The position numbers and the translations under genes were made by a program. From contig NC_092677.1 in the NCBI RefSeq assembly GCF_964355755.1, positions 439,001-503,000 on the forward strand: DNA of 64,000 nt. Direction: 5' to 3'. Source of the stretch: Antedon mediterranea. Its lineage: Eukaryota; Echinodermata; Crinoidea; Comatulida; Antedonidae. The notes beneath the pieces are model-generated. The model was not told where the DNA came from. It worked only from the letters and a program-made list of their open reading frames with translations, and searched no databases. Below are positions 26,004 to 63,924 of the stretch, one piece after another; positions within the stretch are counted from its first letter, which is position 1, and every line of letters starts with the position of its first letter.

Positions 26004-29000
26004 CTACTTAGCTACATGAACTGCTGCAGGTACCTCATTTGCATAGGTTATTGGCGTCTTTCGAATGACCTGAACCATAAAATTGTACACAAATACAGTA
26101 TTACTGCAGGATACTGTTCATTGATGGCAAGAGGTGATTATGTTCTCATGTTTATGTTGATGAATTGTTACATCAAATTGTGACGTCATATAATTACATC
26201 ATTAACACTAGAGATATCATTAACATCATTAATACTAAATTAATGTTAAATTGTGTTTTACAAATGCACTGCTTTGCTTTTGTATGCTTTTTTGTTTGAC
26301 AATCTTGACTGTTCCAAAATATCTGGGCCAATCTACAAAAAAAGTGTTAAATAATGTTAATTATTTAAGAAAAAAGTTCGTTAAACTACGCTAAACTGTT
26401 TTCAATGGTCGTTTTATATGGAAATTTATAAAATAGAGAACCAATTAACATCTTAAATATGAACTGTTTGATTAACTATATTTAAGAAAATTATTCATAG
26501 AAAAAACCAATTTAGTGTAATGTTTTAGAACTCGTAAACTGAAGGGCCTCTCATCAGAAAATGATTCATAAATATCAATAGAAATACCATTCTTAGATTA
26601 AGTAACGTCCCACTTAACTAATCCCTCTATTGTCATTAATTGTTAACTACACAAAGTCATAGAAAGTAGTTTGCTTGTACCAGACGTAAAAAGTAGTTTG
26701 CTTACCCCAGACGTTGTGTCCGATGAATCGTCTTTTTCTTTTAGACCAACAAACTCAATTTCATTGTACGAAAATCCGGACTTCATGCTAATAACGAATT
26801 AATGAAAATATCTTAATATTAGAGTATAAAATTTGGATCAAATAATAATGATGCTGACGTCATAATGTATAGTAGGTTTATACGAAACTACGCGTGAAAA
26901 CTAAATCAAAAAAGGGCAAATTTACAGGAAACTGACAGAAGTACCAATCTTTCGAAAAACTCTTCATTTGACATTGAAACAAAGTGACATTATTCGGTAA
27001 AAGTTTAGTATTTATGGAATCTGAGATCTGACGATTCTGGTATACTTTACTGATATTTCTAAAGTAAAGGTTTAGTAGTGGCGTTTAACTAGGATTAAAT
27101 GAATTGATGATAATGTCAAATACCTGTATTATAACAAATAAATAAACTTACGTAGAATCATCGTATTTATCTGAAAAAGAAACAAGATAATCCATAATAA
27201 AATAAAGTCATCCATAATAATTACAGGATTGATACAACAAACACAATATATTAATTTAAAACACTATAATATCTACACAAAAGAATACATTTTGGTAAAA
27301 TTACCGTGACGAAGTCGAAAACCTTTTACGAATATTTCCTACGGTATTTTGCACGTACAAAGGGAATTAAGGTAATACACGTTCTTGACAGACAGTTTAA
27401 TTCATATATAAATTGATATGCATACTTACATCCTTTTGGCATTCGAGACCGCCTTTTACAAAATAAAAGACAGAAAATGATTAGAACGATAAGAAAGATG
27501 AAACCAGTCGTACACGCTGAGATAATGATGATGGTCATTGGCTCCAGTAGTGGTACTAAACAAAACATAAATGAATAATCACAATAAATATGTTTTCACA
27601 TGTTAAACTCATTTGTCTTCTTACTCTACCGACAATTACACAACAACAATACACACTGTACATACAATACATTTGAACGCGCGCGTCGAAGTTAGACTCC
27701 TTCATGGGATTTCAATCAGTTCTAATAATTAACTGCACTGTAATACTGCAATGGAAACTAAATAATAAAAGATTTGTTATGCCACTTTTCCAGCAAAGGT
27801 AAGACTATAATATAGAGTTATAATAACATTTATGTTTCGTACCAATTGTTACTACTATGCCGTTACCTTTTATGTGAATACGGAAACTCGCGGAACTTGG
27901 GAACGGAATTCCGCCTCGCACTCGACAAGTATATTTCATATTATCATCCATTAGGCTCGCATCAATTATCTCTATGTTCGCAGACGATGACAATTTAACT
28001 CCATTTTTGTACCACTCGTACGAATATGTATCTGCTGATTCGCACTCGTTTACACTGCAGACTAACGTCATTGATTTTCCTTCTTTTAGTGAAACCGATT
28101 CACCCTCAATAGTACGACCTGTCTTCATGTCACTCACGGTGGCATATCCACAGGAGTCTAGAGAAAGCAACAACAAAATATTTTACAAATTTAGCTAATC
28201 AACTGTACATATTAAACAAGATTTCTAGAAAAAAAAGTTACAAGTAGAGAAAAATAGTAATAATACAAGCATGGAAAAATTCCTCTATGTTAATATTGAT
28301 TTTGAATTCCCAACTTTATGTATTTGGCTAGATAATTAAGACGTATGATATTTCTAAGATCTAGAAAAGTGAGATATCTTAGGTCTTACTTTGATAGATC
28401 TTAATTTCTACACACTCTTTTTTTTCAAGTTTGCATTTTTTCAGGAACTTGTTTTGAACCTTTCAGTTTATATATGTGGTATTTTTTACCACATATTTTT
28501 ACGTCAGTAAGAATTCAGAGGAATGTGGAAAGTAGACATTAATTCGCAGTAAAGGCCGAATTGAATAAATATTGGCCTCCTCCTACCTCCAATGATTACA
28601 CTAGTCATTTTCTGCATGTGGCCGACTGGATTCGTAGCAGTCAGTGTCAGTTCGTACGACTTGCCAACTTCTTCCTCAGGAACGTAGAAGGTAAAGGAAG
28701 ACGTGGTCATTCCTTCCACTACATGTCCATCTTTTGTCCACATCAGGCTTGCTGGTGGGTTTGATTCCACCTCAAACGTAACGGTAACGTTCTGGTTGAT
28801 TACTGTCTTGGTGACACTTATGTCATTGATAACTGGTGAAACTGTAAGAAGAGTGTATAATATGGTAATACAGTTATTTTTTTATAAGTTTTATATTTCA
28901 TTTCCAAAAACACAAAAGGCCATCATACCAGCTTTATTAAATAATATGCCTACATAAGCTTACTATCAATTTTCTATTTTAGATACATTGCCCTTCCCTC

Positions 29001-29039
29001 CTCATCAAGAGAACAATTGAAACATTGATTGATTGATTG

Positions 29040-29073
<34 letters not shown>

Positions 29074-32000
29074 ATTAAAGAGTTAGCACACTGTTAAACT
29101 TGTTCCATGCCAGAATTAACAGGTTTTTACTGAATGTGCTAAATTTCAGATTATGTTAATTCAAATGTGTAAGTTCAAGATTCTGATTCCAACCCTTCAG
29201 TTAGTATTGTTGTATGTTTATTAGTTATTTTTTTATTATTACTTGTCAAAGTTTTTATTTTATTTAAAATACTTACAGTATACTTCTAGTCGTTTTGGAG
29301 GACTTGTTTCTTCCCTGACGTTGTTGCGCGCGCCACACACGTACATTCCGTCATCAGCACGTGATACGCTGTATATTATGAGTGTATGGTCACTTCGAAT
29401 CATGTGACTTCTAGAGGTTAAAGGAAGTTCTATGTTGTCTTTCTTCCAATAAACCGACGGCATGTTGTCACCAGTTGCCCTACAGGTCATCGTGGCGTTA
29501 CCTCCAACAACAATGCCATGCGATGGCACATTTGATACAGCTTCACTTAACCCTAAGTCAAAGAAGAAAAACAATTACTTTTTTCTGACTTAATACTTTG
29601 AGCCTTGTAGTACTACTAGTACGAAAGACACAGTGAACTAATATTCTTGATTTTGTTTGTGTTTATTAAATCTGTCTAGTCCACCATATTGTTTTCTTCA
29701 ACCTCCCCATGATTTGAATATAATATAACAAAACTTACAATAAACTTTAAGACTGATATCACCAAAGTCTTCATTTGGTGTATCCCCAATGATTTGAACC
29801 CGACACCTGTATTTTCCATTGTCTTCCTTTTGTACATTTTGTATCTGCAAGTCTGCTTCTCCTGACACGCTGTGACGTGGGTAGCCGTCCTCCCTATGAG
29901 TGGTTCCCTCGGTCCTGGTAAGAATTGGTTGTGGGTTGTCGTACTTATCTAGTAGACTCCAATGTACGATTGGTTCTGCGTTTACACTGGCAATTTTCTT
30001 GCTAAATGTACATCGTAGAACTACTGTACTCCCTTCCATTGATTCTGTACTTTGACCAACATTTACTGACGTACCAACAACCACTATAGAAAAAAAACAA
30101 TTGAATTATTGATTTTTTTTTTTTTAAATCATAAAACGTCTATTAACTCAAATAGTTTACGTTTTCTTTGCCCTTAATTTCCTCAGTGTAGTGCAAATAA
30201 GTCTCTGTATCTGTACGACTTTTAATATACCTGTGATCCTCGAATAGAATAGAATAAATGTAGGTAGGCCTAAGACTTAAGCCTACACATCACAAACAAA
30301 TCACGTAACTTACCCATGTATATAGGTATCGAACAAATACCTGAGTTCATTTGATTTTTTTTTTATTTTGGAATGTTTACCGTAGATATGACATGCACTT
30401 TTTTTGTCAAAGGTATCCATTGACAATATAGTCGGCTAGACGGTTTATAAAACCGAAGTTACAACCCATTTTGTTAAAGTTAAAATACTTAAAAATTATC
30501 TAAATTGAATAGGGCAGATGAACAACTAAATCCAGCTTTTTAAATATAATAATAGTTACGTTCTTGAACTGTTCACATCCTTTGTAACAATCGTGCTTGC
30601 GTTGATTTATGAATAACGCTAGCAGACTTTTAATCTGCTATTTTAGTAAGGAGGTCGTGTTAATGTCACTCTAAAGTTACACTCGACCTATTTTTATAAT
30701 GTTTTATTACAAAAAGAAAAATGGTTGTTATACAGTAGTAATAATTGTTTATACCTTGTCGACAGACATCCAGATAAAAGGCACCACAATACCCTTGCCA
30801 ATAGAAACATCTATCCGAATTTATTGTTAGACGTTTTAGCTAGTAATACTGTAGTTGTAAAGTTAATATACCTCTGTCTACACTACAATTTGATGTGCCC
30901 AAATATGGTAGTGGTATGCCCAAGTGTGGTGATATGACATAATTATGTCCATATATGGGCACTCACATTTTGTTGTGTAGACAGAGCTTTAGACGTTTTA
31001 GTTTGTAAAGTTGCTATAGTATTATATACCATTGTATTAAATAGACAGAAGTGAACGTGATTCTCGCTACTCTATATTACTCCATTCATTGGAATATTTG
31101 GTAATACAAACTGCAAAGTGTTTCTATGGAACGCCGTTTACGCAACATTTCAATGATATGAATTTTATGACGCGATATGTGAATGAAATGCATCGATATG
31201 AATTGAATGGCGCGATATATGAATGAAATGTTTTGAATTGAATGCTTTGAATTGAATGTTTTGAATGAACTGTTTTGAATGAAATGTTTTGAATAAATTG
31301 TTTTGATTGCAATGTTTTGAATGAAATGTTTTGAATGAAATGTTTTGAATTAAATGTTTTAAATGAAATGTTTTGAATGAAATGTTTGAATTGAATTGAA
31401 AAGTCAAACTATTGGTGGCGTATGTCATTCCCGCTCGCGATTTTTTTCTCAACCTCTTAGGCCTAAGCGTGGGTAGCCTCATCTCCACGCTGCCTTTACA
31501 GAGAATCCTAACAGACCTGAGTTCGGAAATATGTATTCCAATGTTTCAGGTCTGTTAGGATTCTCTGTAAAGGATCCATATTGATGACAGCGTGGAAAGG
31601 AGATGAGGGTACCCAGGCTTAGGCCTAAGAGGTTAAAACAAAATCGCGAGCAGGAATGACATACGCCGCCAATAGTTTGACTTTTCAATTCAATTCAAAC
31701 ATTTCATTCAAAACATTTCATTCAAAACATTTCATTCAAAACATTTCATTCAAAACATTTCATTCAAAACATTTCGTTCAAAACATTTCATTCAAAACAT
31801 TTTATTCAAAACATTCAATTCAAAACATTTCATTCAAAACATTTCATTCAAAACATTCAATTCAAAGCATTCAATTCAAAACATTTCATTCATATATCGC
31901 GCCATTCAATTCATATCGATGCATTTCATTCACATATCGCGTCATAAAATTCATATCATCAAAATTTTGCGTAAACGGCGTTCCATATGTTTCACCGAGA

Positions 32001-33881
32001 ATCTTGTGGAGTAGATTATCTAAGCTGGGTCTATAATGTATAGTTTACTACTATTTCAGGCACGTCTGTCCATAGTTTTAACCAGAAACACTTCTATTAT
32101 GCAACATATATTTGTATACAGTATAGTATAGCTACAGGACTGGCATTTATAATACCCGGGTTAAACGAATCTAGTCAAGTGAAATACAGATAGGCCTATA
32201 TCACGCAAAAATGAATGAATATATACAGCAGGGAAAAATTTCATTTGAATATTTTGTTTAGCAAAATTGCTAATCAAACTGATTTTTTAGTCAAGAAACA
32301 TAGTTTTGTATTGTATTTTTTGCTACACAATTGTAGAAATGTGTAGCAAAAAGTTTGTTTTGTATAGCTTTTTGCTATGCTACACTGGCGAAATTATTCC
32401 CTGTACAGACGTACTGTAAAGTAATAAATCTTCTTGAAATGTGTTAAAAAGTTATGGAATGAGGTTCTGAACTAAAGCAATAAACACAGAATTACGTTAT
32501 TATAACACGTGACGTATGTAGGGAGGACACACAAGTACGTGTGTATATTCGAACAGGTGTCTTGCGTTTCTCAACACGCACACTTTTTAAAAGACATGGT
32601 TTGTAATGCTTTTGGCCCGACCTTTGACATTGTATAGGGGGATATATATACCCATAGAGATATTATAGTCTTTATGATATACTACATCTTATATATAAAC
32701 TAAAGTTTTTTATTGATGAAGAAATAAAAGTTGGTCGATCCTACATAAGACAAAAAAAAAAATAAAGTTACTTTATCTCACCATTACTGTTTATGTTTGC
32801 GATATGCGACCGATGCGTGGGCGCAATTATGTGCATCAACCCGACATAGACGCACTTATCGAAAGTCAAATGCTGTGAACATTGCCAAATTGCCCATGAA
32901 TAATAGCCTATATGCATGGTAAGGGTGTTGAGTGCCAATGTTTAAATATCTTGACACCGGTAAATTAAGACACATTGTAAAATTGTCTTTGGTTTGTGGT
33001 ACTAAGTGAATAAATTACAACATTATAATAGTAGAGAAAAAGTTACTGAAAATCTAATCTAATACTCATAGCAATTATTCATGGGTGGGTTCCATGGGTG
33101 GTGGCTGAGAGTAAATGTTTATTGATAAGCCTTTAATTTGATGAGATGGTACTGCAGTACATGTTAAGAAACTATGGAGGAATATTGAAACCTGCGCTAA
33201 TTCTTCGAACCAAAAGTTTAGATTTCAATGTTGATGTATTTAACGATTGATTTGAAGAGGTTCAAGATCGCTGTTGTTATAATACATGTACCGTACTACA
33301 CCATTAGACAGAAATAAAAGTGGCTTAAAATAACAAACGTGTATACTTTTCGTATAAACACTTTAATCGTAATAATAGTATGACAATCAACTTAAAAGTA
33401 TATGAAGGTTATCTCCATTACTTTTTTTTTCATGATTATTGTGTATAAATGACAAACTACAAGAAAAACCAACATAATTGCTTTAGAAACGGTTATTTCT
33501 GCTTAGTTAATCTAATGTTTTATTCAATATTTAATTAATATTAATTACATGACACATCTTTGTTTTTGGAATCTTTATTTGTTTACTGATTTTATAGTAT
33601 ATTTCAGAATATCTTAGAATTGCCTTATTCAAATCTGCATATATAATGGGAAAATTGAAAACAGAAAATCAAAAATTAAAGAAAATTAAAACAAGATAAG
33701 CGGCCTGGATGTGTCTCTTGATGTTGAAGGGGTACACCCTCCATATATGTGTAGGTTCTGATAAAACAAACTTGACAACAATACAATATAAAAAAGATTG
33801 TGAAACAAACTTACCATCAATTACAAACAGATAGCATAGTCCAAGCCAGTACAATCTAAATCCACTAGTTAAATCCTTCAT
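26004..33881 (-). CDS. Ig receptor A: four Ig domains, transmembrane, tyrosine tail (508 aa)
   Basis: Minus-strand exons: 33881-33815 (signal peptide, LYWLGLCYLFVIDG), 30083-29739 (V-type Ig1, VVLRCTF ... DNGKYRCRV), 29552-29277 (Ig2, ATMTCRA ... DDGMYVCGA), 28841-28587 (Ig3), 28157-27867 (Ig4, MTLVCSV ... MKYTCRV), 27555-27430 (transmembrane, TIIIISACTTGFIFLIVLII, then CKRRSR stop-transfer), 27170-27152, 26787-26706, 26069-26004 (tail and stop). All Ig borders are phase 1. Ig3 has phenylalanine and threonine where the two disulfide cysteines belong. The tail has KYDDS, SYNEIEFV (a YxxI site like Src-family SH2 ligands) and TYANEV (YxN, Grb2-like). It is a type I cell-surface receptor or adhesion protein. 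No orthologue is recognised and the ligand is unknown. Upstream untranslated exons are likely (33882-34004 and 38272 onward). Confidence 0.85.
29022..29075. repeat. (ATTG)n microsatellite, intron of receptor A
   Basis: About 50 bp of ATTG units interrupted once by TATT. Confidence 0.9.
30871..30992. mobile_element. MITE copy 5 (GCTCTGTCTACAC family)
   Basis: CTCTGTCTACACTACAATTT at the left and GTTGTGTAGACAGAGCTTTA at the right are inverted. It lies in the first intron of receptor A. Confidence 0.8.
31125..31987. mobile_element. 863-bp near-perfect palindrome (foldback element)
   Basis: Arms of about 400 bp: TATGGAACGCCGTTTACGCA at the left end matches TGCGTAAACGGCGTTCCATA at the right end. 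The arms pair through a long AT-rich block made of GAATGAAATGTTTT / AAAACATTTCATTC units and a unique part (GCCTTTACAGAGAATCCTAA, CAGACCTGA) around a loop of about 26 bp at 31521-31546. No real gene; the frames on both strands are repeat artefacts. It sits in the intron between the signal-peptide and Ig1 exons of receptor A. Confidence 0.92.
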
Positions 33882-34004
33882 GATTATTTCCTTTTTACGT
33901 TAGATATTTCTCTGGTTGCACTCAGCACTGTACTCTTCGAATGGACGCCCTATATAGTTTAGTGGTGCACGACGCTCGAACCCAGTGCGGTCTCTACTGA
34001 ATAC
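33882..34004 (-). other. Probable 5' UTR part of receptor A exon 2
   Basis: On the minus strand TTTCATTACAG|GTATTCAG makes a good acceptor at 34004/34005, leading without a break into the start codon at 33881. Confidence 0.5.
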
Positions 34005-38271: not shown

Positions 38272-38345
38272 CTTGGATCTTGTTGATGTTGTTAGCTTGC
38301 TTAATTTCGGTTGAATGGATTTTAAGTTCTGACTACTCCGCACCT
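38272..38345 (-). other. Candidate non-coding first exon of receptor A
   Basis: The minus strand has a strong donor, TCCAAG|GTGAGT, at 38272/38271. It would pair with the acceptor at 34005. The upstream limit (transcription start) cannot be seen. Confidence 0.35.
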
Positions 38346-39051: not shown

Positions 39052-40486
39052 TTAAAATGACGTGTTGGTTTTATTAACACTGTTATCATATAATGGGTTT
39101 CTGATTTCGTTCATGTGAGATTCATCATCTCCCTCATCGTCGTCTTTGTGGAAGCCGTTATTTCCATACACATGTTGGTTTTTGTTGTCATCCGTACAGT
39201 CGTTTTCATCATCTTTTTGTTTTTCATCTTCATTATTCGTGGGTTTCCTTTCATTATTCTCGCGGTGGCTACTTTCATCAGTACTCAAATTGTGATCTTC
39301 TTTCTCTTCTTCGCACTCGTCATTGTGATAGTTATCATGTACATAAGGCCGATGTCCCTGTGTGTTTTGGTCTCCATTACAACCCTCGTACTCGTCTTCG
39401 TTGTAGCTATCGTGCATACCAGGCCGATGTCCCTGTGTGTTTTGGTCTCCATTACAACCCTCGCACTCGTCTTCGTGGTAGTTATCGTGCATACCAGGCC
39501 GATGTCCCTGTGTGTTTTGGTCTCCATTACAACCCTCGCACTCGTCCTCGTGGTAGCTATCGTGCATACCAGGCCGATGTCCCTGTGTGTTTTTGTCTTC
39601 ATTACAACCCTCGCACTCGTCTTCGTGGCGGTTATCGTATATCGTTGGCATCATTTTTTGGTTGCACTGAATGTTTTCATAAATGCTTTCCCGAAAGTGT
39701 GTAAAATCAATATAATCCTATAAAAAATACCCAAATAAATCAAATCAACATTGTTGAAAGATTCCTTCCTTGAACGTTCAGTCAATATAGGATTATGATT
39801 GTATTTAGTTTTAGGCCAAATAAAGTCATTTATATTTTTTCTCTGGGTGTAGGCCTATCGAAGTCTGAAAAGAGATCGCGTTAAAAAAACTAAAACGTTA
39901 CCTTGTCTTCGGATAATAAAGTGTCTAACTGCCCTGACAACTGGTCAAACGATGGCCTATCTTCTGGGTCAAGACTCCAACACCATATCATAAGTTCATA
40001 TCTAAACAAAAACATATTTTTCTGATACATTAATAACATTGCAAGGTATAATGTGTGGCGAAGTTTATTACGTGTTCTGTGGCGTTTAATAATCCATAAT
40101 CACATTGCAAGATATAATGTGTGGCGAAGTTTATTATACGTGTTCTGTGGCGTTTCATAATCCATAATCACATTGTCTAGATTAGTAATAAGTATATTAT
40201 TATTTGATTTCTTACATTGATTGTTCGCAATGATCAGGTTTAGGCATCCGATATCCTTCTTTTATCTTTACGATAAGATCACCTGTTGATATACCTGGAT
40301 ACGGGTGGCCTCCTGTAAACAAGTCATATCATTATTGTAACTATATAATTATCTGATCAACATAGGCCTGTAATCATCATCATTATCATCATCGCCATCA
40401 TTATCATCATCATCATCATCATAATCATCATCATCATCATCCTTGTCATCATTATCATCATCATCATTATCATCATTATCATCATT

Positions 40487-40524
<38 letters not shown>

Positions 40525-48979: not shown

Positions 48980-51900
48980 ATGCGACGACGTATGCTTTAT
49001 TTAATGGTCTTGTTGATGGCAGCTGTAGGTGCGTAATTCATTTTCTATTTGGCCTAGTTCTGTATTTTTTAAAAACATCTTTTAAAAACATCTTTTAAGA
49101 TGCTTTAAAACATTGAGTAGTCAAAGCTAATAGGCTTAGGTACGGTATTTAAATGCATTGTGTATATAGTTATTCTATAAGTGACATCTCTGTACAACGA
49201 TATAAGCCGTAATAATTAAATATGTGAATAATATGATGGAAAAAAATATTTCACCACGAAATATACAATTACTATACTATATAGAACTATATTATCTTCA
49301 TTATTGTTATTATTTGTAGAGTAATAAGGTTTGGTAGAATTAATTGTAAACCATATTGATAATTAATTTAACAGTTTTTGACATGTTGTTATTAGCGCAC
49401 ATACTAAGAATCACAGTCTAATGGACTTAAGTCGATTGGAACAATCAATTACAAACGTCATGGTTTTATTTCTTACGATCAGTTGCTAACAAAATTTACA
49501 GCAGTTTAATTGCACATCGCATTTCTTATCGTACACTGCGACCTATATTTAACTAGTGTAGTTTAACTATTAAATATATACAGCTCCCACATGGCGTATA
49601 AAAACGATACAAAAAATCTAAAACATCACAAAACTCTATGGTTGTAGTGTAATAATCATAATTAATGTTACTGTTTTCGTCTTTCTAAATTCGTCCAATC
49701 TTTAGTCTTTTCACCAATATTATTATTATTTTCATTATTATCTATCATCCTGATTCTGACGAAGTTGCGTCATCATTTAAAGAAGAACCAAATTGATTTT
49801 CTTTGTAGAAATTTATTCCGACTTAAACACCAAAACAAATTCAACCCAACAAGCTTTAGAGGGTGCAAACACGACCTTAGTCTGTACGTTCACACCAGAG
49901 GACGGTATTGACATAACATGGAGTATTATTGATGAAAGTGATGTACCGGTATATAATGGCAAACTGTTAATATCCAGAAATGAAGTATTATTCAAACGAT
50001 ATGATCTAGTTGATCAAGCTAGTTTGTTGATTAGCAATGTTCGACAAAGTGACGCTGGTACCTATGTGTGTAGCATCTACAGCTCAGCTGATAAACTGTC
50101 GTATTCGTCACCAGTTACACTGAATGTCTTGTGTAAGTATTATATTATTGCTAAATGCACGCACACCGTTTTACTCTGTGTTTTATGTATCTCATGTTTA
50201 ATTGTATGCGATGTTTTACTGGTGAAACAAAGCTGTTTGTATGGAATTGAAGTTATACACTTGCGAATGATTGACCCAGAAAATGTATTAACTTGTGTAT
50301 TAATGGTCTACGGTATATTTTCAGAAGATGGGACGACATACATTATTTATTAGAGTTAGACCTATAACATACCAATAAAGAAGACGTAATGTTTTGGTAT
50401 ATTTTGGAAAATACTAAATGAATAATATAACAATTTGTTACACAAATCTATACACATTAAATAGGGATAGAGAAGCCGCATATTGAGTTACCTAGCAGCA
50501 CGATCAGTGAGGGTGAAGTTGCCACTCTTGTTTGTTCCACGTCCGCTAACCCTACTGCAACCTACAAGTGGCTTCGTGAAGGTTATAAAATCCAGTCGAA
50601 TCATCCTAGATATGTCCAGTCGTCTACAACTGGCGTGCTAACTGTATACCACGCAGGTTATGAAGACTTTACATCGTTTTCGTGTATGGCGTCAAATTCG
50701 GCTGGATCGAAGACTAGCGAAGAAGTAATATTGAACGTACATTGTATGTCTATCGCACTAATTAAGCCATCTCATTAAGTCTCTCACTAATTACGTCATC
50801 TCATTTCGATCTATTAGATTCAATCTGGCAAACCACCAGTATCGTCATCAATAATCATTATGTCATTAATGTTAACATTGAACATTCATTTCAGCTTCAG
50901 CAGGATTAAGAAACCACGTATGCAAACTTTCACTACAATCTCATTTATTATTTTACTTCTACGCTCTTAGCTTGTCTAACTGTGCCTAATTAAGATTTAC
51001 AATCAGCAACCTTTCTACTTATTTCCAGAGCTTTGCAATATTTCACTTTGCTAAAACTGTCATGTTGTTGACAATGAGAAATGTCTTCTTTTGTCCTACA
51101 ATATTGTATTGTCCTTTCTTTTGCTCATTTCTTGATCATTGTTTGTTTTTGGTAAATCTAACTGCAGATTCATACGGCACTCACCGTTTTCACAGGCTAC
51201 ATTTTTGGCACATGTTGCTCCCATTGATTAATTCATTTTATAAACATTGCATTTACTATTTTTTAGCCTAAAACTCGTCTCAACAGTGCTTTACCATTTC
51301 ATCGCCTCTGCTTAAATTGGGTAAATGATGGTTCTCGACCACGCACTCCCACCCTCTCCACTTGACAAGAATTTACTTAGATGTGTTTATAATAATATTT
51401 TTCCAAATTCTAAACTATAAATAAAATAGATCTATTGATTACATCGGTTGTTAATGATTGTCTTACCCTGAACAATTACGTGGACTCTTAACATTCGACA
51501 TGTTGCAAATAGTTGAATAAAATAAATTTCTTTTCTGAACATCCTTGTATCTTTACAATTACTATTATTGTCCATGCATAATCGTTCCAATAGGCCTATT
51601 CATCATCGTTCCAATAGGCCTATTCATAATCGTTCCAATAGGCCTATTCATCATAGGTAACTCAGATTGGTGAGAACCTATAATTTTTCAAACTAGACTA
51701 AAGTTGTAGCGTACCATACTGACTCTTGTTTCTTCTTACAGATATTCCTAGATTCTCAATTAGGAAACAAGGAAACTCCATACGATGTATTCCATATGGA
51801 AACCCTGCAATAGATCAGGTAGAGTACTACATTAATGGTACCAAGCAACCAGACTTAGAACAAGTTACAATTGATGAACGATTTTGTAATCTAGTTACGT

Positions 51901-53312
51901 GTTCGGCTGAAAACGTTGCCGGAAATGGAAATAGAACTGAATTGTACTGCCCAACAGGTATGTTTGTATTCTAATAAGAAACATACTTTATCATCATCTA
52001 CCATCTGAGGTCCATGACACTCTTATTCCTACATACTTCTCTATTGCTTCTTCTTTTAGTTCAGAATATGTATTATTATTTTTTAATCTATAGAATAGAT
52101 ACCCTCATCTTATTTTTCAGTCATACAGTATCTTCCTTCTATCATGATTTTCAACAATCTCTTCTTCTTCTCTACTTCTATTAAGAGAACGCCAACTTTC
52201 TATAAACCCTTACACCGGTAATGCCTACAATACTTGTGTGTTACATTAGACTATAATTATATAAAGTTTGCAGTACGTTTGTTTTGTAGTTGAGTATTGA
52301 CTTTAACAGTTTTCTTTAGAAACTCATACGGGTGTACTGCAAACTTTCCATCGTCATTATAAATTGTTTTTGTTTTAATCCTAACAATATGTATTTTATT
52401 TCTTTTCAGTAAAGACTGCACCCGAGAAACCCAAAGGTAAGTTTTAACTGAAGCTACATATCACCTCATTTTTATATTGGTCGACCAGCAATGGTACACA
52501 CAACTAAATGTGAAGTAGTAATATGGTAGGGCTTACTAAAAGGTGATGAGCAATGAGCAATTTTCCGCGGTACAGCAGCAAAAGAAAATGCCTAAAGGTT
52601 GTTTTTCTAGAGGATCCAAATTGTAAATGTTTCATTTTATTATTAGATCTTGGTAACCAGACGCTTGTTGGTGTTCTGACGTCAATCTTGATATTCTTGT
52701 CTTTATCTGTTGTTATGGTAATAGTCTACCTCGCTTTGCGACCCGGCCCAGGTAAGATAAAACTACTATTTTATCATATGCTTTATAATATATGTCCAAT
52801 AATTATTGAATACTTGTTAATTAAGTTATATTATCATTTAATTTTAAGATTTTGAACAGAAAGAAGGACGATATGATGATCTATTCGACGGACCGTCGCC
52901 AGTAAGTCGTATATAACTAATTATACGTATTTTACTGTATGGAACTTTGTGTGTGGGATCAGCCATATTTGTACATAATACATAAGCAATTTTGTCTACA
53001 TCGTAAGAAATACGATGACGTCATCCTCTCAACGATAACATAATGATATTGAGTTTATACAGCTGAAATGGCACTATTTCTTGGACGATGTCCACAGACT
53101 CTTTTAAAACAGGAGAAAATGTTCGTTTATGTTTTATAAATGAATTAACTTTCAGTTGGTTAATTTTATCAACAGATAAAGTAAGTCTTAGAAGCCTTAT
53201 TTTGTAAGTTTACACAGAAGCACTGTGCAATATGGGTGCATAAACATTAAAGTAATTGTTTAATTTACAGTACTATGGTGAAGACATAGTAAATGTAAAT
53301 TCTTTTAAATGA
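48980..53312 (+). CDS. Ig receptor C: three Ig domains, transmembrane (364 aa)
   Basis: Exons: 48980-49028 (signal peptide MRRRMLYLMVLLMAAV), 49809-50132 (V-type Ig1: TLVCTFTPEDGIDITW ... DAGTYVCSIY), 50465-50743 (Ig2: ATLVCST ... FTSFSCMASNSAG), 51742-51957 (short third Ig-fold: IRCIPYGNP ... FCNLVTCSAENVAG ... LYCPT), 52410-52436 (9-aa stalk), 52647-52751 (transmembrane: LVGVLTSILIFLSLSVVMVI), 52849-52901, 53271-53312 (stop TGA). All exon borders are phase 1 up to the tail. The tail is short, with RYDDLF (YxxL) and PYYGED. The third domain has four cysteines, one more pair than usual, shared with gene E. It is a type I surface protein and lies head-to-head with the RTK. No named orthologue is recognised. 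Confidence 0.87.
51590..51655. repeat. 27-bp repeat (CGTTCCAATAGGCCTATTCAT)
   Basis: Three tandem copies of ATCGTTCCAATAGGCCTATT CATAA/CATC in the intron before the third Ig exon of gene C. Confidence 0.85.
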
Positions 53313-53703: not shown

Positions 53704-55709
53704 ATGGCTGTCGTGTTTGCACACTTAGTAATATGTGTCGTGTGCATATTAACAGGTAGGTACTACTCATTTGTACCAGAATTGGACAGCTGGTATTTAA
53801 GTTGTTTGACTGACTAACCAATCTAACTTTGTATTATTGATTTGATTATGTACAGTAGAATAACCATTGTAGTTATTATCTAATTTCAGATCTTACAGCG
53901 TGTTCAGAAGTATCACGTAATTGTAAGTAAACACATTAATATCCTATTTTAATTTTTTTCTATATTGCATTTATCCTATGCGATATTAGATAATTAAGTA
54001 TTGCATTTGTTATTTTATAGAATCGTAATATATTTTTGTTTCCAGATAACAGGACAGTTATTGAAATAAATGATAGTATTGTAAATGAAGGAGAACAAGT
54101 TGAGATAACGTGTAAGACCGAAACAAATAAAACAGTGGAAGATGTCACATGGTACCATGGTAACAAGATCATTAACGTGGATGATCCGCGTTTATCACAA
54201 AACGATGACGTCACAACATTGATGATCAATGAGGTTGATAGGAAAGATGCTGGTAACTACAGTTGCCAGACGGTAATTAACAAAACAAGAACGACTTCTT
54301 GGAACTTTGGCTCGCTAAAAGTTAACTGTAGTGAAGTGGAAAGAAATTTATAAAAAAGAAAAGCGAGTTTAAAATACGCTTGCGTTGCGTCTCTAGTGTG
54401 AACCAAGCCTAAATTAATTTCTATTACTGTTTGAATTATTATTTAATATTACAGATATTGAATTTGTGACAACAGAGTTTGACAACGACCATGTAATATG
54501 CGAGGTGATTAGTTATCCTAATCCAGCCACTGTCAGAGTAGTTGTGAACTCAAACAAGTTAAAGTCTGCAGACAACAAGGTAGAGTTTACACTAACAGAA
54601 CATGATTCTAGGTATAACGTGTCGTGTGAAGCAACCACACTCAGCGGACAAGTTGTTGTTCACAGTTTTGAAAACGAAGGTAATATATACGTAATATGTT
54701 TATTTAAACTATATTTATCTTTATTTTGTTATCAATTGGATCATACCGCAGAATGTCGATACAATTTTCAACAGCAAAGTATCAATATACAACGTTCGTT
54801 GTGATTATGACATCATGTTCCGAATTTGTGTATTTTCAGTTAATTGTATGTTGTAAAACGTTAATTGAATATGATATTTATTCAAATTTTTAAAATAAAA
54901 TTGTTTTAAAACTTATGAATAATACAGTGTTCTCATTCTTGTTTCGTTAGATCACAACGAAGATCGTAAGTATTTATTATTGTTCATATAATTTGAAATC
55001 ATTTGAAAAACATATACTTACTTTAATTATAAACAAATAATGAGTGATTCACTGGTGTACCGCACAACATATAGGCCAACTGTATTCAACTTTTCCATGG
55101 AAAAGTAGACTATTATAATATTCCTCCAATTAAACTTATTATTTAACATAGAGAAACAAAATCTCACCATGTAAAATGAAATTTACTCTTTTCAGCGGCT
55201 TTATCTCCAATGGTAGTCATTGGTCTAATATTAGGAGTAGGATCAGTCGTGCTATTCATTATACTTACGGTTTTTGTTTGTAAAAAAGGTAAATGTTTAG
55301 TTTAATTTAATGTTGTTGCAAAAGAATTTTATTTGTGGTATGGAGAAGGAGACTATTTTAACATTATCAAGGTGACTAATATTACGATGATTAATGACGA
55401 TGATAATGATTCAGATTGAAATAATGACGAAAAAATGTACATTATTTATAAACATATTTAACCATTTATGCTTCTATATGATGTGTTTCATGATCATGAT
55501 TGTTATTATTATAGTTAAAAAGAGAAGACAAAAGAACACAGAAGTAAAAAAGTAAGTTCTACATAATTATGTATTTTAATAAAGCTCTGATTATGTTTTT
55601 AAACTAGTTATACAAAAACTTATTTTTGTTTTTTAGAAACGATGATGGAAGGGTGTCCTATAAAGCAGTTCATAGTGAAGACAATGAAGAGATATCTATT
55701 AACACTTAA
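53704..55709 (+). CDS. Ig receptor D: two Ig domains, transmembrane, ITIM tail (269 aa)
   Basis: Exons: 53704-53755 (signal peptide MAVVFAHLVICVVCILT), 53890-53922 (11-aa linker exon), 54046-54327 (Ig1: VEITCKT ... DAGNYSCQT), 54455-54679 (Ig2: VICEVISYPNPATV ... YNVSCEATT), 54951-54965 (5-aa stalk DHNED), 55196-55288 (transmembrane: VVIGLILGVGSVVLFIILTV, then CKK), 55515-55551 (basic KKRRQK), 55637-55709 (stop TAA). Phases agree. The last exon contains VSYKAV at residues 252-257, which fits the ITIM consensus (I/V/L/S)xYxx(I/V/L), followed by an acidic stretch. ITIMs are known to recruit SHP-type phosphatases, so an inhibitory receptor role is inferred. AATAAA at 55918-55923 is the likely poly(A) signal. 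Confidence 0.87.
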
Positions 55710-56520: not shown

Positions 56521-59500
56521 ATGTGTAAGATTAATGCTGGAATATATTTCTTTTTGACAACAACTGTGGTTGGTAAGTTTGTTATTTTGAATAACTTTTA
56601 AGGAACAATTATAATTGTGTTTGAACAGGTCTGTCTTGATTAGTTTACCTTTGTAATACCATTCATTCGTAGCATCCAACTCGAATGTTGGTATGTACTA
56701 AGAAAAGGTCGTTCGTTTTTAATTGTCATTTCATCACCACCAGGGCCTAAGTTCATACTCACTGGCTTTATCTAGATTAAGCTTGATCTAGATTGTTTCA
56801 ACAACATTTTAAAACAACAACAGAAACAGCAATCAAATCTTCCAGAATTAACAAGAAATTGTTGTACATGATAAAACAAGCATTTTACGAAGATTGTTGC
56901 GAATAATTCCTTTTCTTCGTAAACTTAGGTTGCTTGAGTCAACTACAACTAACAATACCTCAATCTCAAAGTTTTGTTGCTGGTGAAGATGCAGTGTTTT
57001 CCTGTAGGTACAGCCCGTCAGATGCCACTAGTGTTGACGTCACATGGTTTAAAGGTGATCTGTTTAACAATGAAGAAAGTTTGATTACGAGAAGCATCGT
57101 AATTAATACACGCGCGTCTCTGGTTGCTGTGGGAAACGGTGAAGCTAGCATGCGCTTGTCTTCGTATTCACGTACCGATGAGGGTGTGTATACTTGCGAG
57201 ATTTATGGCAACGTGGCCGGTGCACCTGATAGCAAAAAGAAATCAACAACGATTAGTACAAGAGGTGAGTGTTGCTACAACTTAATGATAGTCATGCTTA
57301 AGATCATGCTTAATTCCATGTTTGTTCTTCATGGTCATTTGCATGCTTATATGGATACAATATGAAGATGAGTGAAGTGAAAGATATATACACTAAAAGA
57401 ACATTTCAGATATTGAACCTATAATCATGGTGGAGAGTGAGGGGAAAGGAAAAATAGATTGAAGATTATGTTCTATAATATTTTATTTTAAAATTACTGT
57501 ATTTGTTTAAAAATAGAAAATGATAAACCTGTCTTAGAAATTGTCTCTGATGACTTGACTGAAGGTGGATCAGCTACACTCACATGTGTGACGAATTCGT
57601 ATAGCGATAAGACCACGTGGTATCGTGCGGATCAATTGGTGTCCATTGGTGAAAGATATCAAGCCGCTGATTCTGTATTAAACATCACTGTACTGACAAA
57701 CGTAGACCACGCTTGGTACAAATGTCAAGTTGAAAGAGAGGCTGACACGTTTGAAAGTGATGCTAAAATGCTGTCTGTTAAGTGTATGTTATATAATTTG
57801 CTTTGTTTTTTTTTTATATTTTACCTGAATTATTTTATCTAATAAAAGAAATTAAAAGAATTAAAAGATCAGAATCAACTCCCACATTTATAATAATTTA
57901 TAATAATAATATTTATATATAATATATTTATAATATATATATTTTTATTATATTTTCCTCAAAAAAATGTATATAAATGAATTAAGGAGGTAAGACAAAG
58001 AGGAACAAGTTCCTATTACCTAAAAGGTTTCAACAACAAAACAATTAAAGAGTATAAAAAAATGAGAGAGTAGACAATTATGTTGGGAGACTTCAAATAG
58101 TTTAATTCTATAATATTATTACTAATTATTGATGAGAGTGATGAGTTCATTTATTTTTTGTAAAACCGTGTCAAGACAGTTTCATCAAGCTGTTAGCTAA
58201 ACTTCGACAGTTGCGTTAAGATGCCGATTGGGCTCCTTCCAGCCACTGGATGGTTTGATGTGTAGTCTAGGAGACCAGCCGTTATTGCTTATGTTTATTG
58301 TTTATATTTTTCTTTTAGATACACCAATCCCAAAACTGATATTTAATCAGAACATGGTTGCATGTTCAGGGGAAGACTCATTCCCCCTACCGATGTCATA
58401 CACGATATATTTTGATGGGATACAACAAAAACTGACCAATGAAAATGAGGCAATGTTAAATAATGATTGTGTCAATATCACGTGTTTTGTTGAAAACACT
58501 GTAGGAACCGGAAGTGACACAGAACTTTGTCCTAAAGGTAAATATTACCATTAATGCACATTTCACACCAAGAAGTGACATCACCCTTGTTTGGTTTGTA
58601 CTTTAAAAAGTCATATTTCATTTCTGCCATACCATCACGATATTAAAAACTATAAAAATCCTCACTATAATCTTTTAGTAACAATGATTATAATGTACAC
58701 AACTGCAATGATTTTTTGTAAATTTCACATTGACATTTTTCCGTTATACGGGTAAATTGCTGGTTATATATGTTATATATGTTATAAGAAACATATCATG
58801 TATTATAGATAAATATTGATTATCATTCCGACTCATTAATGTTGAATGTTATTATGTTTTTTCTCAGACATTGTTTACCCAGAAAAACAAACAGGTAAGT
58901 TGTTGTTATTGGTGCTTACTCATCATCGGCGTCGTCTACCACCATCATACTACAACCAAAATCTCCAAAATTATCTATGTACAGTTAGGCTGTCAGGAGG
59001 AAAATGGCAAAAGGCTTCCTACTTTCTAGGATTTTTATCAGATAATCTATATTGTTTTGAGAACTCTTGCAACATGACCACAGTGCTGATTTTGCCATTT
59101 GTCCCCTTACTGTAGATTTACTTTCTATATGATTGGGTTCAAAGGTCATATTCATTATTATATTTGATCTTCACTTGTAGGACTACAAGGGGGTGCTGTT
59201 GCCGGTATCACCGTTGGTGTATTGTTATTCTGTAGATTTACTTTCTATATGATTGGGTTCAAAGGTCATTATTATATTTGATCTTCACTTGTAGGACTAC
59301 AAGGGGGTGCTGTTGCCGGTATCACCGTTGGTGTATTGTTATTCTGTAGATTTACTTTCTATATGATTGGGTTCAAAGGTCATTATTATATTTGATCTTC
59401 ACTTGTAGGACTACAAGGGGGTGCTGTTGCCGGTATCACCGTTGGTGTATTGTTATTCTGTAGATTTACTTTCTATATGATTGGGTTCAAAGGTCATTAT

Positions 59501-60251
59501 TATATTTGATCTTCACTTGTAGGACTACAAGGGGGTGCTGTTGCCGGTATCACCGTTGGTGTATTGTTATTCTGTGTTGTTGTTGTTGTAGGAGTTGTTG
59601 TTATCGTAGTTTTAAAAGGTAAACAAATTACTAATTGATTATGATTTCGACAGCAATGTTTGTGGAATGAACTATACAAAATACATTAACATTAATTCTG
59701 TATCCAGTGCAACAATTACTTATCTTCATAAAATAATGTATATTTCCCATTATATTTAGGTTTTATTTATAGGCCTATTAATTAACTTTATTTCTTTTAA
59801 TATGTATACATTTACCGTTTTTACCAAATGACTTGACTTTCTTGTTGTAGGTATGTGTTTCCTGCCAACATCTAAAAGTGGAACATTCTCTGTTAAAGAT
59901 ACGTGAGTATTGATTGAAAGTATTTAATAAATACTTTTTGTTTATAAACAAAACTGTCCTTTGTATTGTAGTTTATGTATATGTGACGTCATTTATTTCA
60001 TATGAGTACAACATAAAAAAATACTCCATAAAACTAATATACTATAATAATAGTCCTACTACTGTATTATTAATATTATTTAGAATACGTTGATAGCAGG
60101 TTTGGTTGTTAACTTTGATCATGATTTGTTGCTCTTTTTTTACAGCGGAGAGAATAAGTGTGAGTGGCCAGGTGGTTCAAATGATAGCGAGCAAGACAAG
60201 GGTACTGTCGAAGATGAAAGCTATGAAAATACCTCCTCAAACTGGATCTAG
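56521..60251 (+). CDS. Ig receptor E: three Ig domains, transmembrane, YENT tail (384 aa)
   Basis: Exons: 56521-56572 (signal peptide MCKINAGIYFFLTTTVV; an in-frame ATG at 56491 would add ten residues), 56929-57264 (V-type Ig1: AVFSCRYSPSDATSVDVTW ... DEGVYTCEIY), 57517-57783 (Ig2: ATLTCVT ... AWYKCQV), 58319-58537 (third Ig-fold: MVACSG ... CVNITCFVENTVG ... ELCPK), 58868-58894 (9-aa stalk), 59523-59618 (transmembrane: GVLLFCVVVVVGVVVIVV), 59851-59902, 60146-60251 (stop TAG). Phases agree. Ig1 is close to that of gene F, and the third domain and stalk to those of gene C. The tail has ESYENTSS (YxN, Grb2-like). The 5' half of the transmembrane exon with its acceptor is present four times; only the last copy is complete. 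A type I surface receptor, function unknown. Confidence 0.86.
57840..58000. repeat. AT-rich TATAATATTTATA tract, intron of E
   Basis: Low-complexity TATAATAATA/ATATATTTATA text after the Ig2 exon; nothing else is seen in this intron. Confidence 0.6.
58985..59110. repeat. Dispersed repeat, copy 2 of 2
   Basis: GCAAAAGGCTTCCTACTTTC TAGGATTTTTATCAGATAAT CTATATTG ... CACAGTGCTGATTTTGCCAT matches 40798-40910 in the RTK intron. It ends right where the 114-bp array begins. Confidence 0.65.
59114..59575 (+). repeat. 114-bp x4 tandem array across the transmembrane-exon acceptor of E
   Basis: Acceptors TTGTAG|GACTACAAGG occur at 59181, 59295, 59409 and 59523, exactly 114 bp apart. Each unit includes intron text (AGATTTACTTTCTATATGAT ... 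GATCTTCACTTGTAG) and the first 54 bp of the exon up to TATTCTGT. In the last copy the exon runs on into GTTGTTGTTG and a donor. In the first three it runs into AGATTTACTT and reaches a TGA. Confidence 0.95.
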
Positions 60252-60263
60252 GGGAATCTAGAC

Positions 60264-60412
60264 AATTTAAATGTCCGGAGCTTGGCGTTTTTATCTAAAC
60301 CTGTGGCGTCTAGATTTAAATGCCTGACGTTTGGCGTTTTTATCTAAACGTGTGGCGTCTGGATCTAAATGCCTGGCGTTTGGCGTTTTTATCTAAACGT
60401 GGGGCGTCTAGT
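60264..60412 (+). repeat. About 63-bp repeat after gene E (GTGGCGTCTAGATTTAAATG)
   Basis: Two to three copies of TGGCGTTTTTATCTAAACGT GTGGCGTCT.GAT.TAAATGCCTG. It probably lies in the 3' UTR of E, since it starts about 12 bp after the stop. Confidence 0.85.
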
Positions 60413-60535
60413 ATGTTTATTACTACAATAATGCTGTTTTATTTCTTTACTGTATTTTTATATTCTTACTTTAATTTATTTGCTAAAATTAATAATCATT
60501 TGTTTAGTTTTCTTAATATATAATTAATTTTAGTG

Positions 60536-60685
60536 CCTAGTTTAGGTCTGGCTGCACACACATTATGTTAATCTAGTGCCATGGCGTTGCCTAGTTTAGG
60601 TCTGGCTGCACACATTATGTTAATCTAGTGCCTGGCGTTGCCTAGTTTAGGTCTGGCTGCACACATTATGTTAATCTAGTGCCTA
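60536..60685 (+). repeat. About 56-bp repeat (CCTAGTTTAGGTCTGGCTGC)
   Basis: Three copies of GCCTAGTTTAGGTCTGGCTG CACACATTATGTTAATCTAG TGCC. Confidence 0.9.
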
Positions 60686-62059
60686 GTGTGTAGTTCACTG
60701 TTCTACGATTTTCTTGTCTTCCTTTGTTCTATTTTATTTTGCTCATTCCGCTCTGTTGTGGTGAGTATGCAGGAAAGCACTTGTTTGTAACATATTTTAT
60801 ATTAAATGTTGGATTTACGGAATATAGGGAAGTAGTTCATTTCATCATGTTTTCTATCTTATTAATTATAACTAAGCCACGTATACCTTTTCAAATGCAT
60901 TCGTTAAAATAAATAGTCTGACTTTAAATGAATTACGACTGAATACAAATGACGTCTGGATATAAAATGACGTCTCAGGCACATTTTTATTGGATTAATT
61001 ATAATTTAAATAAAAGTATTTCGCAATCTAACATTTTTGAGGAAAAAACTGATGACGGAGACTTGCATTAACTATACAGTAAATTACATTTTATAACGGT
61101 CACCTAGAGTACGTATACTGCAGAGAACCGCGTCTATTAATTATGTCGGGCGATGTTAGGATCAAGAAAACTATTTAGTAAAACATGGAGGTATATTTTT
61201 ATACCTCCATGAGTAAAATAACCAAAATATAAAAGAAAAATACCGTTGCAGAATATGGGAATCTGTGAATACCAATTACAATTCAAATTCATTTTGGTGT
61301 GGTGTTTTATTGAGTAGCCTATGCTAATCAACTATATAGGCGTTAATTGCTTAACTGTACATTACTAGAATCATTGAGCTGTATAGCTCCATGTGTTAGA
61401 ACGCTGCGTATAGTCTGAGACGCTGCGTATACGCTGAGACGCACAAACAAAACATTTGACCAATCACACATTACGACGGATCTTCCGAACTCTCGCTTGT
61501 GATTGGTTAAATTATTTGCGACGCCTCCCAGTCAGAACCGCCAAATTGGCAGAACATATTTGCAGTGCAGATACCTAATAATATTGTTATACTCACAATA
61601 TAACTATGCCCTGCATAATATTATAGCATGTAACACTGTAAATTACATACAACAAATCAGGGAAGAGTTAAATTACTCTTCTCTGACACAATAAATGCCT
61701 ATTTGAAAGTGATAATTAATAAAATAATTTATTTATGAGCAATTCTGCTGATTTTATCGATAGTTACTAATTAAATAAACATTTATATTTAAATAATGTA
61801 ATATATATGGAATTTCAAATGTTTAAATACGACACGATTTGGTTGTTTATTGTTTGTTTAGTTTGAGTTCGTGAACTAAAGTTAATGACTAACTATATCT
61901 TATCTTGATTGTAAACGGCCGGCCATTTAGTAACAGACCGTGGAGTTGGCGGGGAGAGTTTCATTCGTGGTCTCGCATCGTTTCTGTTTTACGTGACTAT
62001 TCATGAAATCTTAATTTTTAAAAAAAGTATTGTTAATATCGAAGTATTCCGTCAACGCC

Positions 62060-63924
62060 ATGGACATGTTATATTCCAGTTTGTTAATTATGCTTATAGG
62101 TAAGTACGACTAATATTATTTAATACATTGTAAGGCGTGGCTATACGTGTATTGCACGATACCATTAGTTTGTGTAGATATTAGGTTTGAATTACGTGTG
62201 AATAACCTGTTATTACTGAACTTTGGTCACAGACGCTTCTACATGTTAAACATTGGTCAGCCATTCAAATACACAGTATATTTCTATTACTGACTATGAT
62301 GTATACAGTCTATATGAATTTATAATGTTTGTAAGAAATAGATTAAACTAGAGAGTTAATTCATTACATGGCCTATTTGTCACTAGATATGTAGGCATTA
62401 AAAGTAATATTTAGTTCATATTCATTAAATATTATCAAACGTAACACTACCGGTAATATAATATGTATTTTCATTATGTTAGTTAATATAGTAGGTAATG
62501 ACGAAATAGCGCAATAAAGCACATTATTTCGGTAATCTTACTTTATTTGCATAGGCCCCCTAAAGACAAAGTTCTAATTGGATTGTGGTTCTGTCTCGGT
62601 CTTCGTTTCTAGAAACCTTTTCCTCCATCACAATACTAATACACAATACGTTTAATTATTGTGGTTTTGCTATTTGCCTAATTTCAGCTTGATTGCTTTC
62701 ATTTTTATACATAGGCTTCCTACACTTGGATAGATATACTATATTTTAATTTCTGTTAATAAGTACTACTGTTTTCTATAGGCCTGACATGCATCACATT
62801 TGAATTAAAGATTTTATCACTATATTTTGAATCATGTTTTTTTAACCATAGTCCCTATGGCTGTTGCACTAGAGGTCACAATAAGTGATGTGCAAGGATT
62901 TCCCGAGAATTCAGACGCGTTACTAGCTTGCGACTACGCACCAACTAGTGCAACGGGGGTTGATATCTCGTGGACACGAGTTAATGCTCAAAGCGAAATT
63001 ACTAATTTAGTAGTACGAAGTGAAGTGGTTGATGAATTCAAATCACGTATGGAGCTCCAGGTTGCTGATACTTTCCAGGGTAACGCTGGTTTAATAATTC
63101 GTAATGTCACTAAAGAGGATGCTATGTCTTACGTGTGTGCAGTATTCTCTACTAGTGATGGTCAAGAACAAGGAATAACTACTCTACAGATACAATGTAA
63201 GTATTGATCTTTTTGTTTTTCTCTTTCTATCATGCTTGCTACTTAATGGTATCTCTAAAACAGGACATGCTCCCGATTGAAAAAAAAAATCAATTCCTTG
63301 ATCATAACTTTCATAAATTTAAAAGGTCATATTTGACCTATACACTCAGCAAGACGTGCCCGCATATAAAAAAGAAATAACTATTATTTAAATACTTATG
63401 CGATCTACAGATATAATTTACATTGTGTATGGCCTACATAATATCCAAGTCCAAACGAAAAGAAAGAAAGAAACGAAACGTGTAGGACTAATAGACCTTA
63501 GATGAATGCGGATATTTTTCTGAACCCACAGTGTTAGTCTACGTTTTATTGGGGAAGGATTTTGTAGGTACTTAGTACTATAATACAATATTGAATAAAT
63601 GTGAAATGTTAAGAATTCTACTGTTTTTTGTTTTTATTTTAGGGAATTACAAGCCAAAAATTACAAGTGATCCAGCTCCAGATTCTTTGCAAGTTGGTGA
63701 CAACGTAACATTTACGTGTTTATCTGAAGCCAACCCTACATCAGAAATAGCATGGCTAAAGAACAACGTTACCATTGAGATGGATGACAGATTCACAAAG
63801 AACGAGAATGCATCTACTCTTCACATAGATGGTTTAACTCGAGATGATCACGCACTCTTTAGTTGTAGTTCAACAAACCCCGTAAAAGAAATAAGGAGTG
63901 ATCAGATTGAAGTTGATATAGAAT
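62060..63924 (+). CDS. Ig receptor F (partial, 3' end beyond window)
   Basis: Exons: 62060-62099 (signal peptide MDMLYSSLLIMLI), 62852-63196 (V-type Ig1: ALLACDYAPTSATGVDISW ... EDAMSYVCAVF), 63643-63924 (Ig2: VTFTCLSEANPTSEIAWLK ... HALFSCSS). All borders are phase 1, and the last exon ends with the donor AAT|GTAAGT, so more exons lie outside. Ig1 shares the A-T-(S/G)-V-D-(V/I)-(T/S)-W block with gene E, making F a tandem paralogue. Further Ig, transmembrane and tail exons are expected by analogy only. Confidence 0.85.

Follow-up and report, generated by a model that had tools for sequence, protein, structure and literature searches.

A stretch of 64,000 nucleotides from the crinoid Antedon mediterranea (assembly GCF_964355755.1, contig NC_092677.1, referred to here as C8, positions C8:439001-503000; hereafter the window) carries six predicted genes, A to F, for transmembrane receptors of the immunoglobulin superfamily (IgSF), one of which, B, is a receptor tyrosine kinase (RTK). 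The genome comprises 354 Mb in 18 contigs. Matches in the genome searches fall almost entirely on C1-C11, with one on C17, and eleven large contigs would suit a crinoid, although excerpts of PMC12828049 and PMC11310086 give no crinoid chromosome number. A conserved 68-base piece of 18S has 13 matches, 11 of which lie on C2, an 18S fragment in the locus L004 looks like that of an echinoderm, and a search for cytochrome oxidase found no match in the assembly. Gene models were obtained by six-frame reading and splice scoring, with the remaining exons placed by hand, and all of them are predicted from sequence. The arrangement proposed in an earlier note on this DNA, with A and B on the minus strand and C to F on the plus strand, was borne out, since in a six-frame reading the immunoglobulin (Ig)-type exons of A (27.8-30.1 kb) and B (44.1-46.0 kb) fall on the minus strand and those of C to F (49.8-63.9 kb) on the plus strand, and Pfam Ig domains lie above cut-off in all six genes. 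The exons, in window numbering, are the following (TM, transmembrane; ORF, open reading frame; D1 to D4, Ig domains counted from the signal exon).

26004..26069, minus, gene A candidate tail exon, TYANEV; ORF with acceptor 26069, in no listed splice chain
27430..27555, minus, gene A TM exon, phase 1-1; splice scoring
27867..28157, minus, gene A Ig D4 exon; splice scoring, Pfam
28587..28841, minus, gene A D3 exon; splice scoring
29277..29552, minus, gene A Ig D2 exon; splice scoring, Pfam
29739..30083, minus, gene A V-set D1 exon; Pfam, also a genome V-set match at C8:468743
33815..33881, minus, gene A candidate signal exon, uncertain
39055..39717, minus, gene B (RTK) tail ORF with SIYENI, Tyr repeats of ~25 amino acids (aa) and NPLY
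39893..40328, minus, gene B kinase C-lobe exons, inside ORFs 40328-40215 and 40099-39893
40603..40714, minus, gene B kinase exon, WMAPE
41030..41152, minus, gene B kinase exon, HRDLAARN and DFG
41519..41757, minus, gene B kinase hinge and insert exon
41945..42055, minus, gene B kinase alpha-C exon
42353..42547, minus, gene B kinase Gly-loop (GEGFFGKV) and VAVK exon; ORF limits
43864..43962, minus, gene B TM exon; splice scoring
44092..44349, minus, gene B D3 exon; splice scoring
44797..45075, minus, gene B Ig D2 exon; Pfam
45679..46017, minus, gene B V-set D1 exon; Pfam, genome search
46112..46169, minus, gene B candidate phase-1 signal exon
48992..49028, plus, gene C candidate phase-1 signal exon
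49809..50132, plus, gene C V-set D1 exon; splice scoring, Pfam
50465..50743, plus, gene C Ig D2 exon; hand-placed
51742..51957, plus, gene C short D3 exon; splice scoring, cluster profile
52647..52751, plus, gene C TM exon; splice scoring
53704..53755, plus, gene D candidate phase-1 signal exon
54046..54327, plus, gene D Ig D1 exon; hand-placed, Pfam
54455..54679, plus, gene D short second Ig exon; hand-placed, cluster profile
55196..55288, plus, gene D TM exon; splice scoring
55515..55551, plus, gene D small tail exon, phase 1->2; splice-phase chain
55637..55709, plus, gene D terminal exon with VSYKAV, an immunoreceptor tyrosine-based inhibitory motif (ITIM); ORF, splice-phase chain
56521..56572, plus, gene E candidate phase-1 signal exon
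56929..57264, plus, gene E V-set D1 exon; splice scoring, Pfam
57517..57783, plus, gene E Ig D2 exon; hand-placed
58319..58537, plus, gene E short D3 exon; splice scoring, cluster profile
59523..59618, plus, gene E TM exon; splice scoring
59851..59902, plus, gene E small tail exon, phase 1->2; splice-phase chain
60146..60251, plus, gene E terminal exon, DESYENTSS (YxN); ORF, splice-phase chain
62852..63196, plus, gene F V-set D1 exon; copies of 82-88% aa identity at C8:707.7, 1043.4 and 1068.9 kb and C10:24.217 Mb
63643..63924, plus, gene F Ig D2 exon; splice scoring, copies
beyond the window, plus, gene F D3 64289-64507, TM 64933-65025 and tail to ~65.9 kb (~1.9 kb past the end)

V-set domains above the Pfam cut-off are present in A (1.6e-19), B (7.5e-14), C (1.7e-12), E (2.9e-15) and F (2.8e-14), as well as in D1 of a further gene, G, outside the window; in D the match above cut-off is to Ig_3 (2.8e-14), its V-set match lying below. 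All six show the Cys-Trp-Cys core and the signal and TM exons of V-set/I-set members of the superfamily, the signal exon of F being unsettled, and according to splice scoring many of the Ig domains and TM segments are encoded by phase 1-1 exons. The exon plan that the earlier note attributed to all six could be modelled for A to E, as a signal exon with a phase-1 donor followed by phase 1-1 Ig exons and a phase 1-1 TM exon, the signal exon of A being an uncertain candidate 3.7 kb upstream; for F there are several signal-exon candidates, none of which was chosen. A short third domain is common to C, E, F and G. C, E and F had been taken for tandem duplicates, but D1 identities of 27-31% rule out recent tandem copies, and the recent copies of F sit 0.2-0.57 Mb away; judged on these identities, the three genes are one family, but an old one.

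The cluster proved to be far larger than six genes. The window lies towards the left edge of an array of V-set exons spanning C8:0.38-1.66 Mb, where four merged searches give at least 80 distinct V-type exons between 383 and 1659 kb, with a median spacing of 8.4 kb (the hit lists were merged by hand, and some exons hold stops and may be pseudogenes). Of 790 candidate Pfam V-set matches genome-wide, 150 were scored; 46 of these fall in C8:0.38-1.67 Mb and a further 40 in C8:4.7-6.2 Mb, where a single 20-kb tandem exon array accounts for 19. A second V subfamily accounts for at least 38 D1 exons at C8:1.06-1.66 Mb. The array includes recent duplications of 25 kb and ~133 kb, and several match groups recur at the ~133 kb offset with identical scores. 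Three cluster profiles detected no Ig exons left of A in window positions 1-26 kb or in the locus L003; a V-set match lies left of the window at C8:383 kb, and the left part of the window itself (15941-19005) holds ORFs resembling long interspersed nuclear elements, with endonuclease and reverse transcriptase domains. For F, its copies exclude the possibility, named by the earlier note as its refutation, that these are single-copy orthologues in fixed number; no close genomic copy of B or C was found in the genome searches.

The F ectodomain recurs at C8 0.71, 1.04 and 1.07 Mb with 80-94% protein identity. Between F and the 0.71-Mb copy (L005), the D1, D2 and D3 exons are 93-98% identical in DNA, with a synonymous divergence (dS) of 0.05-0.13, and the match stops no more than 17 bases from the ends of the exons; the D1-D2 intron cannot be aligned beyond shuffled sequences (z 0.6) and the D2-D3 intron barely (z 3.5), although their lengths are similar. 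When L005 is compared with L006 and L007, the D1-D2 intron can be aligned (91-93%) and the D2-D3 intron cannot. The TM exons, assigned by position, differ between F and L005-L007, so that like ectodomains are joined to different TM segments, as in paired receptors; a DNA search found no match to the F TM exon in L005-L008, and no tail exon common to L005 and L006 was found. Within the young tandem pair L006/L007, the D1 and D3 exons have diverged by 3.8% and 3.2%, against 0.5-0.9% in the introns, 0.4% in D2 and 0.6% in the TM exon. Substitutions are thus five times more frequent in D1 and D3 (20/563) than in non-coding sequence (26/3615; p 5e-7), and of the 11 D3 columns that differ, each indel base being counted as one, there are 9 in which L007 sides with both F and L005 and not with L006. 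Taken together, the exon-only identity of F and L005 and the excess exon divergence of L006/L007 suggest, as the simplest reading, an exchange of sequence between copies restricted to exons. An F-type V exon (86% aa identity) is also present on another chromosome, in L008/L017 (C10:24201001-24219000), upstream of exons that on inspection look CUB-like, of MAM exons (Pfam 1.2e-12) and of others; it is perhaps a shuffled exon.

As regards selection on the ectodomains, where the earlier note had suggested comparing Ig1 with the tail through the ratio of non-synonymous to synonymous change (dN/dS), the F-type exons remain below 1, at 0.28-0.53 in D2 (five pairs, a sixth pair being without synonymous change) and 0.20-0.39 in D3 (three pairs, L006 left out); positive selection on the whole F-type V domain was rejected, D1 values being 0.37-0.65 in ten pairs. 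In the second subfamily, where parsimony counts were made on 15 of the 19 fetched D1 exons and 18 of the 20 D2 exons, the overall ratio is 0.78 for D1 and 0.66 for D2. Only in the D1 loops of this subfamily resembling complementarity-determining regions (CDR) 2 and 3, which comprise 22 codons, does it exceed 1, reaching 1.56 against 0.62 in the rest of the domain (15 exons, p 0.0017); the lowest p in a window scan of the subfamily is 0.028, uncorrected for the number of windows. Amino-acid change is biased to the CDR-like loops in this one V subfamily.

The different signalling ends claimed for the cluster are real, and with a megabase array and different TM exons they had been understated, although not all of the proposed motifs stood. 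Tails were modelled as chains of a TM exon, a small phase 1->2 exon and a 2->stop exon, ranked by splice score, and such a chain is possible for D, E, F and H, the last a TM gene beyond the window. The ITIM proposed for D is upheld at the level of sequence and splice phase, VSYKAV lying in an in-phase terminal exon whose chain ranks third of seven listed. A YxN tail had been proposed for A and E; that of E, SYENTSS, belongs to the chain ranked first among those listed, but for A the exon encoding TYANEV (26069-26004) exists and enters none of its listed chains. The tail chain of F, with NYAEEDEK, is first among the chains listed, and that of H, with YTEV, is third of three. The YxxL motif assigned to C had to be rejected as a confirmed motif, since the sole chain found from its TM exon leads into the tail exons of D. 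Among the matches listed genome-wide, no tyrosine phosphatase falls in the array.

The description of B as a complete kinase with SIYENI and NPLY holds. In the predicted gene, a V-I-I ectodomain is joined, behind a TM exon, to a complete FGFR/RET-like kinase with all catalytic motifs (1.9e-86 against Pfam PK_Tyr_Ser-Thr for the joined exons), and the tail ORF contains both motifs and the Tyr repeats. In a PDB sequence search, one EGFR chain comes top by score, followed by RET and FGFR chains, most of which cover nearly the full query and are its best full-length matches. An Ig ectodomain is also found in FGFR and VEGFR. That of B, unlike those of FGFR, VEGFR and RET, appears in a comparison of domain order and best matches to be of the cluster type, with the V-set domain first and a D1 nearest to gene C in this genome; its repeat-rich Tyr tail is a further difference. 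Within the domain set, the top BLAST pair is formed by the D1 domains of B and C (31% identity), and in a genome search with the B ectodomain, which gave 13 matches including three to B itself, C is the best match of B D1 outside B (3.3e-5). Kinase relatives were taken from the 40 matches of a genome search with the B kinase, among which the array holds no second such kinase, the only other place on C8 being 5.61 Mb. This relative and another at C7:0.11 Mb have the highest identity to B in the APE exon (65% and 71%, respectively), and in the stretches fetched no D1-, D2- or D3-type Ig exons lie near the kinases at C8:5.61 Mb, where FN3 is present, or at C7:0.11-0.12 Mb, where Pfam gives no match. 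Taking into account that B D1 matches C best, though weakly, and that these two relatives are without such Ig exons nearby, B may be a chimera of a cluster-type ectodomain and a kinase, probably joined by recombination in an intron.

Our preferred explanation, which we hold to be somewhat more probable than not, is that the six genes make up the left portion of an IgSF complex of megabase size that would work like vertebrate paired-receptor clusters, with mixed outputs. The membrane-distal V domains would bind cell-surface or foreign ligands and the tail would sort the output, the ITIM of D recruiting SH2 phosphatases, the YxN motifs of E and of the B tail recruiting Grb2-type adaptors, and B signalling through its own kinase, while exon exchange would hold the ectodomains alike across different tails. 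The B kinase might also, as the earlier note suggested, phosphorylate the tails of its neighbours. A recognition role fits the related ectodomains of the array, their different TM exons, the signs of exon-limited exchange and the loop-biased change; it may be one in immune or self recognition, perhaps in coelomocytes. The broader proposal that an echinoderm lineage built, independently of vertebrates, a megabase paired-receptor complex in which exchangeable V-type exons are coupled to inhibitory, adaptor and kinase outputs is put forward tentatively, as a possibility with the odds against it.

In vertebrates, paired-receptor clusters are exemplified by CEACAM, SIRP and KIR/LILR. The crinoid genes resemble them in being clustered Ig genes, in combining similar ectodomains with different TM segments or tails, in having an ITIM member and in an exchange limited to ectodomain exons, here deduced from identity patterns; they differ in including one RTK, in the absence from A to G of any visible activating partner with a charged TM segment, and in belonging to an invertebrate genome. 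The Ig domains of the Hydractinia Alr proteins are unusual, unlike the canonical Cys-Trp-Cys cores of the crinoid genes. In architecture, the Alr family, with 41 genes (cited in PMC11999971), is comparable, being a large IgSF complex in which V-set and I-set domains both occur. In the excerpts of PMC12065747, the fester co-receptors of the clustered Botryllus fuhc locus are likewise V-type Ig receptors that bear an ITIM; as described there, they carry a sushi domain between the V and C2 Ig domains and long tails, unlike the short modelled tails and the kinase member found here, and Pfam detects no sushi domain in A to G.

Several observations weigh against the paired-receptor explanation. Whole-domain positive selection is not seen in F-type D1, and the CDR-like loops with the ratio of 1.56 were partly chosen after the window scan. 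The tails are short and modelled from splice-phase chains, the L005 TM exon lies 2.6 kb past D3 and was assigned by position, and the TM and tail exons of the second subfamily were looked for and not found. In the seven modelled TM segments of A to G, inspected by eye, no charged residue occurs in the core, so nothing points to an activating partner of the vertebrate kind. The excess exon divergence of L006/L007 could reflect selection rather than exchange. As for B, its link to the cluster appears modest: outside B itself, an I-set-type exon on C6 gives the top ectodomain match (1.0e-5, D2 part); in the search from the side of C, where B scores 2.6e-5, G and several single-exon Ig ORFs of C11, C3, C1 and C8 rank above it; and the ectodomain comparison covered two kinase relatives, stronger whole-kinase matches such as C6:20.65 Mb (44%) being present elsewhere.

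These genes might instead be ordinary developmental adhesion or growth-factor receptors, expanded by tandem duplication without recognition of foreign or allogeneic ligands. The D1 profile does match chains of CEACAM, contactin, NCAM, JAML and CAR, which indicates that V-I ectodomains occur in adhesion proteins, and both the FGFR/RET-like kinase of B and the F-type dN/dS below 1 agree with such a role; yet at least 80 V-type exons in one block with recent 25-kb and ~133-kb duplications, the exon-confined identity and the loop-biased change would be unusual for developmental receptors, and we regard this alternative as unlikely. A similar, low likelihood is given to B being a conventional Ig-type RTK placed beside the cluster by chance. 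Ig-type RTKs are common, the kinase matches FGFR and RET, and the D1 match to C is modest, B not being the best match from the side of C; nevertheless, B has a V-set D1 whose best match outside B is its neighbour C, its exon phases are those of the cluster, and its two kinase relatives are without such Ig exons nearby.

That copy number and exon identity have been inflated by unpurged haplotypes or misassembly could account for the match groups that repeat with identical scores at the ~133 kb offset, but the unrelated introns and different TM exons of F and L005 are unlike those of allelic copies, and divergence is plain among many of the second-subfamily V exons, which makes this quite improbable. 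No more probable is the idea that the array serves allorecognition, as a histocompatibility complex in the manner of Alr in Hydractinia or fuhc in Botryllus. To our knowledge, no fusion or rejection biology is known in solitary echinoderms, and the sushi domain that forms part of the Botryllus receptors is missing from A to G by Pfam, even though a megabase IgSF array with an ITIM-bearing member would suit this idea, as would the V-Ig receptors with ITIM and hemi-immunoreceptor tyrosine-based activation motif (hemITAM) in the fuhc locus, according to the excerpts of PMC12065747.

Other Ig arrangements were observed elsewhere. The second V-set block, at C8:4.7-6.2 Mb, encloses the FN3-type receptor kinase at 5.61 Mb. 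In L059 and L060 (C8:5121501-5131500 and 5136001-5146000), two near-identical Ig-like exons alternate on the minus strand ~0.5 kb apart, L059 holding 19 such ORFs, of which the outermost are cut, and L060 another 11, and a single-exon kinase ORF adjoins; a Dscam-like exon array and a giant multi-Ig gene are candidate readings. The locus L014 (C8:1577501-1586500) has a V-type exon and, after it, near-identical repeats that are possibly EGF-like in another frame. Long single-frame ORFs with Ig matches, mostly of ~380-660 aa and some of them regularly spaced, occur in several places on C3, C1 and C11, in the following groups.

C3:11.87-11.90 Mb, long Ig ORF group
C3:18.70-18.88 Mb, long Ig ORF group
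C1:17.44-17.46 Mb, long Ig ORF group
C11:15.8-16.0 Mb, long Ig ORF group

A literature search, which covered part of the literature, found no comparable echinoderm complex. The named exons are now at hand for work on expression, polymorphism and signalling. If the paired-receptor explanation is true, the logic of conserved recognition ends, changing signal ends and exon exchange would have arisen outside vertebrates and colonial animals, and a kinase would be one possible exchangeable output of such a receptor complex.

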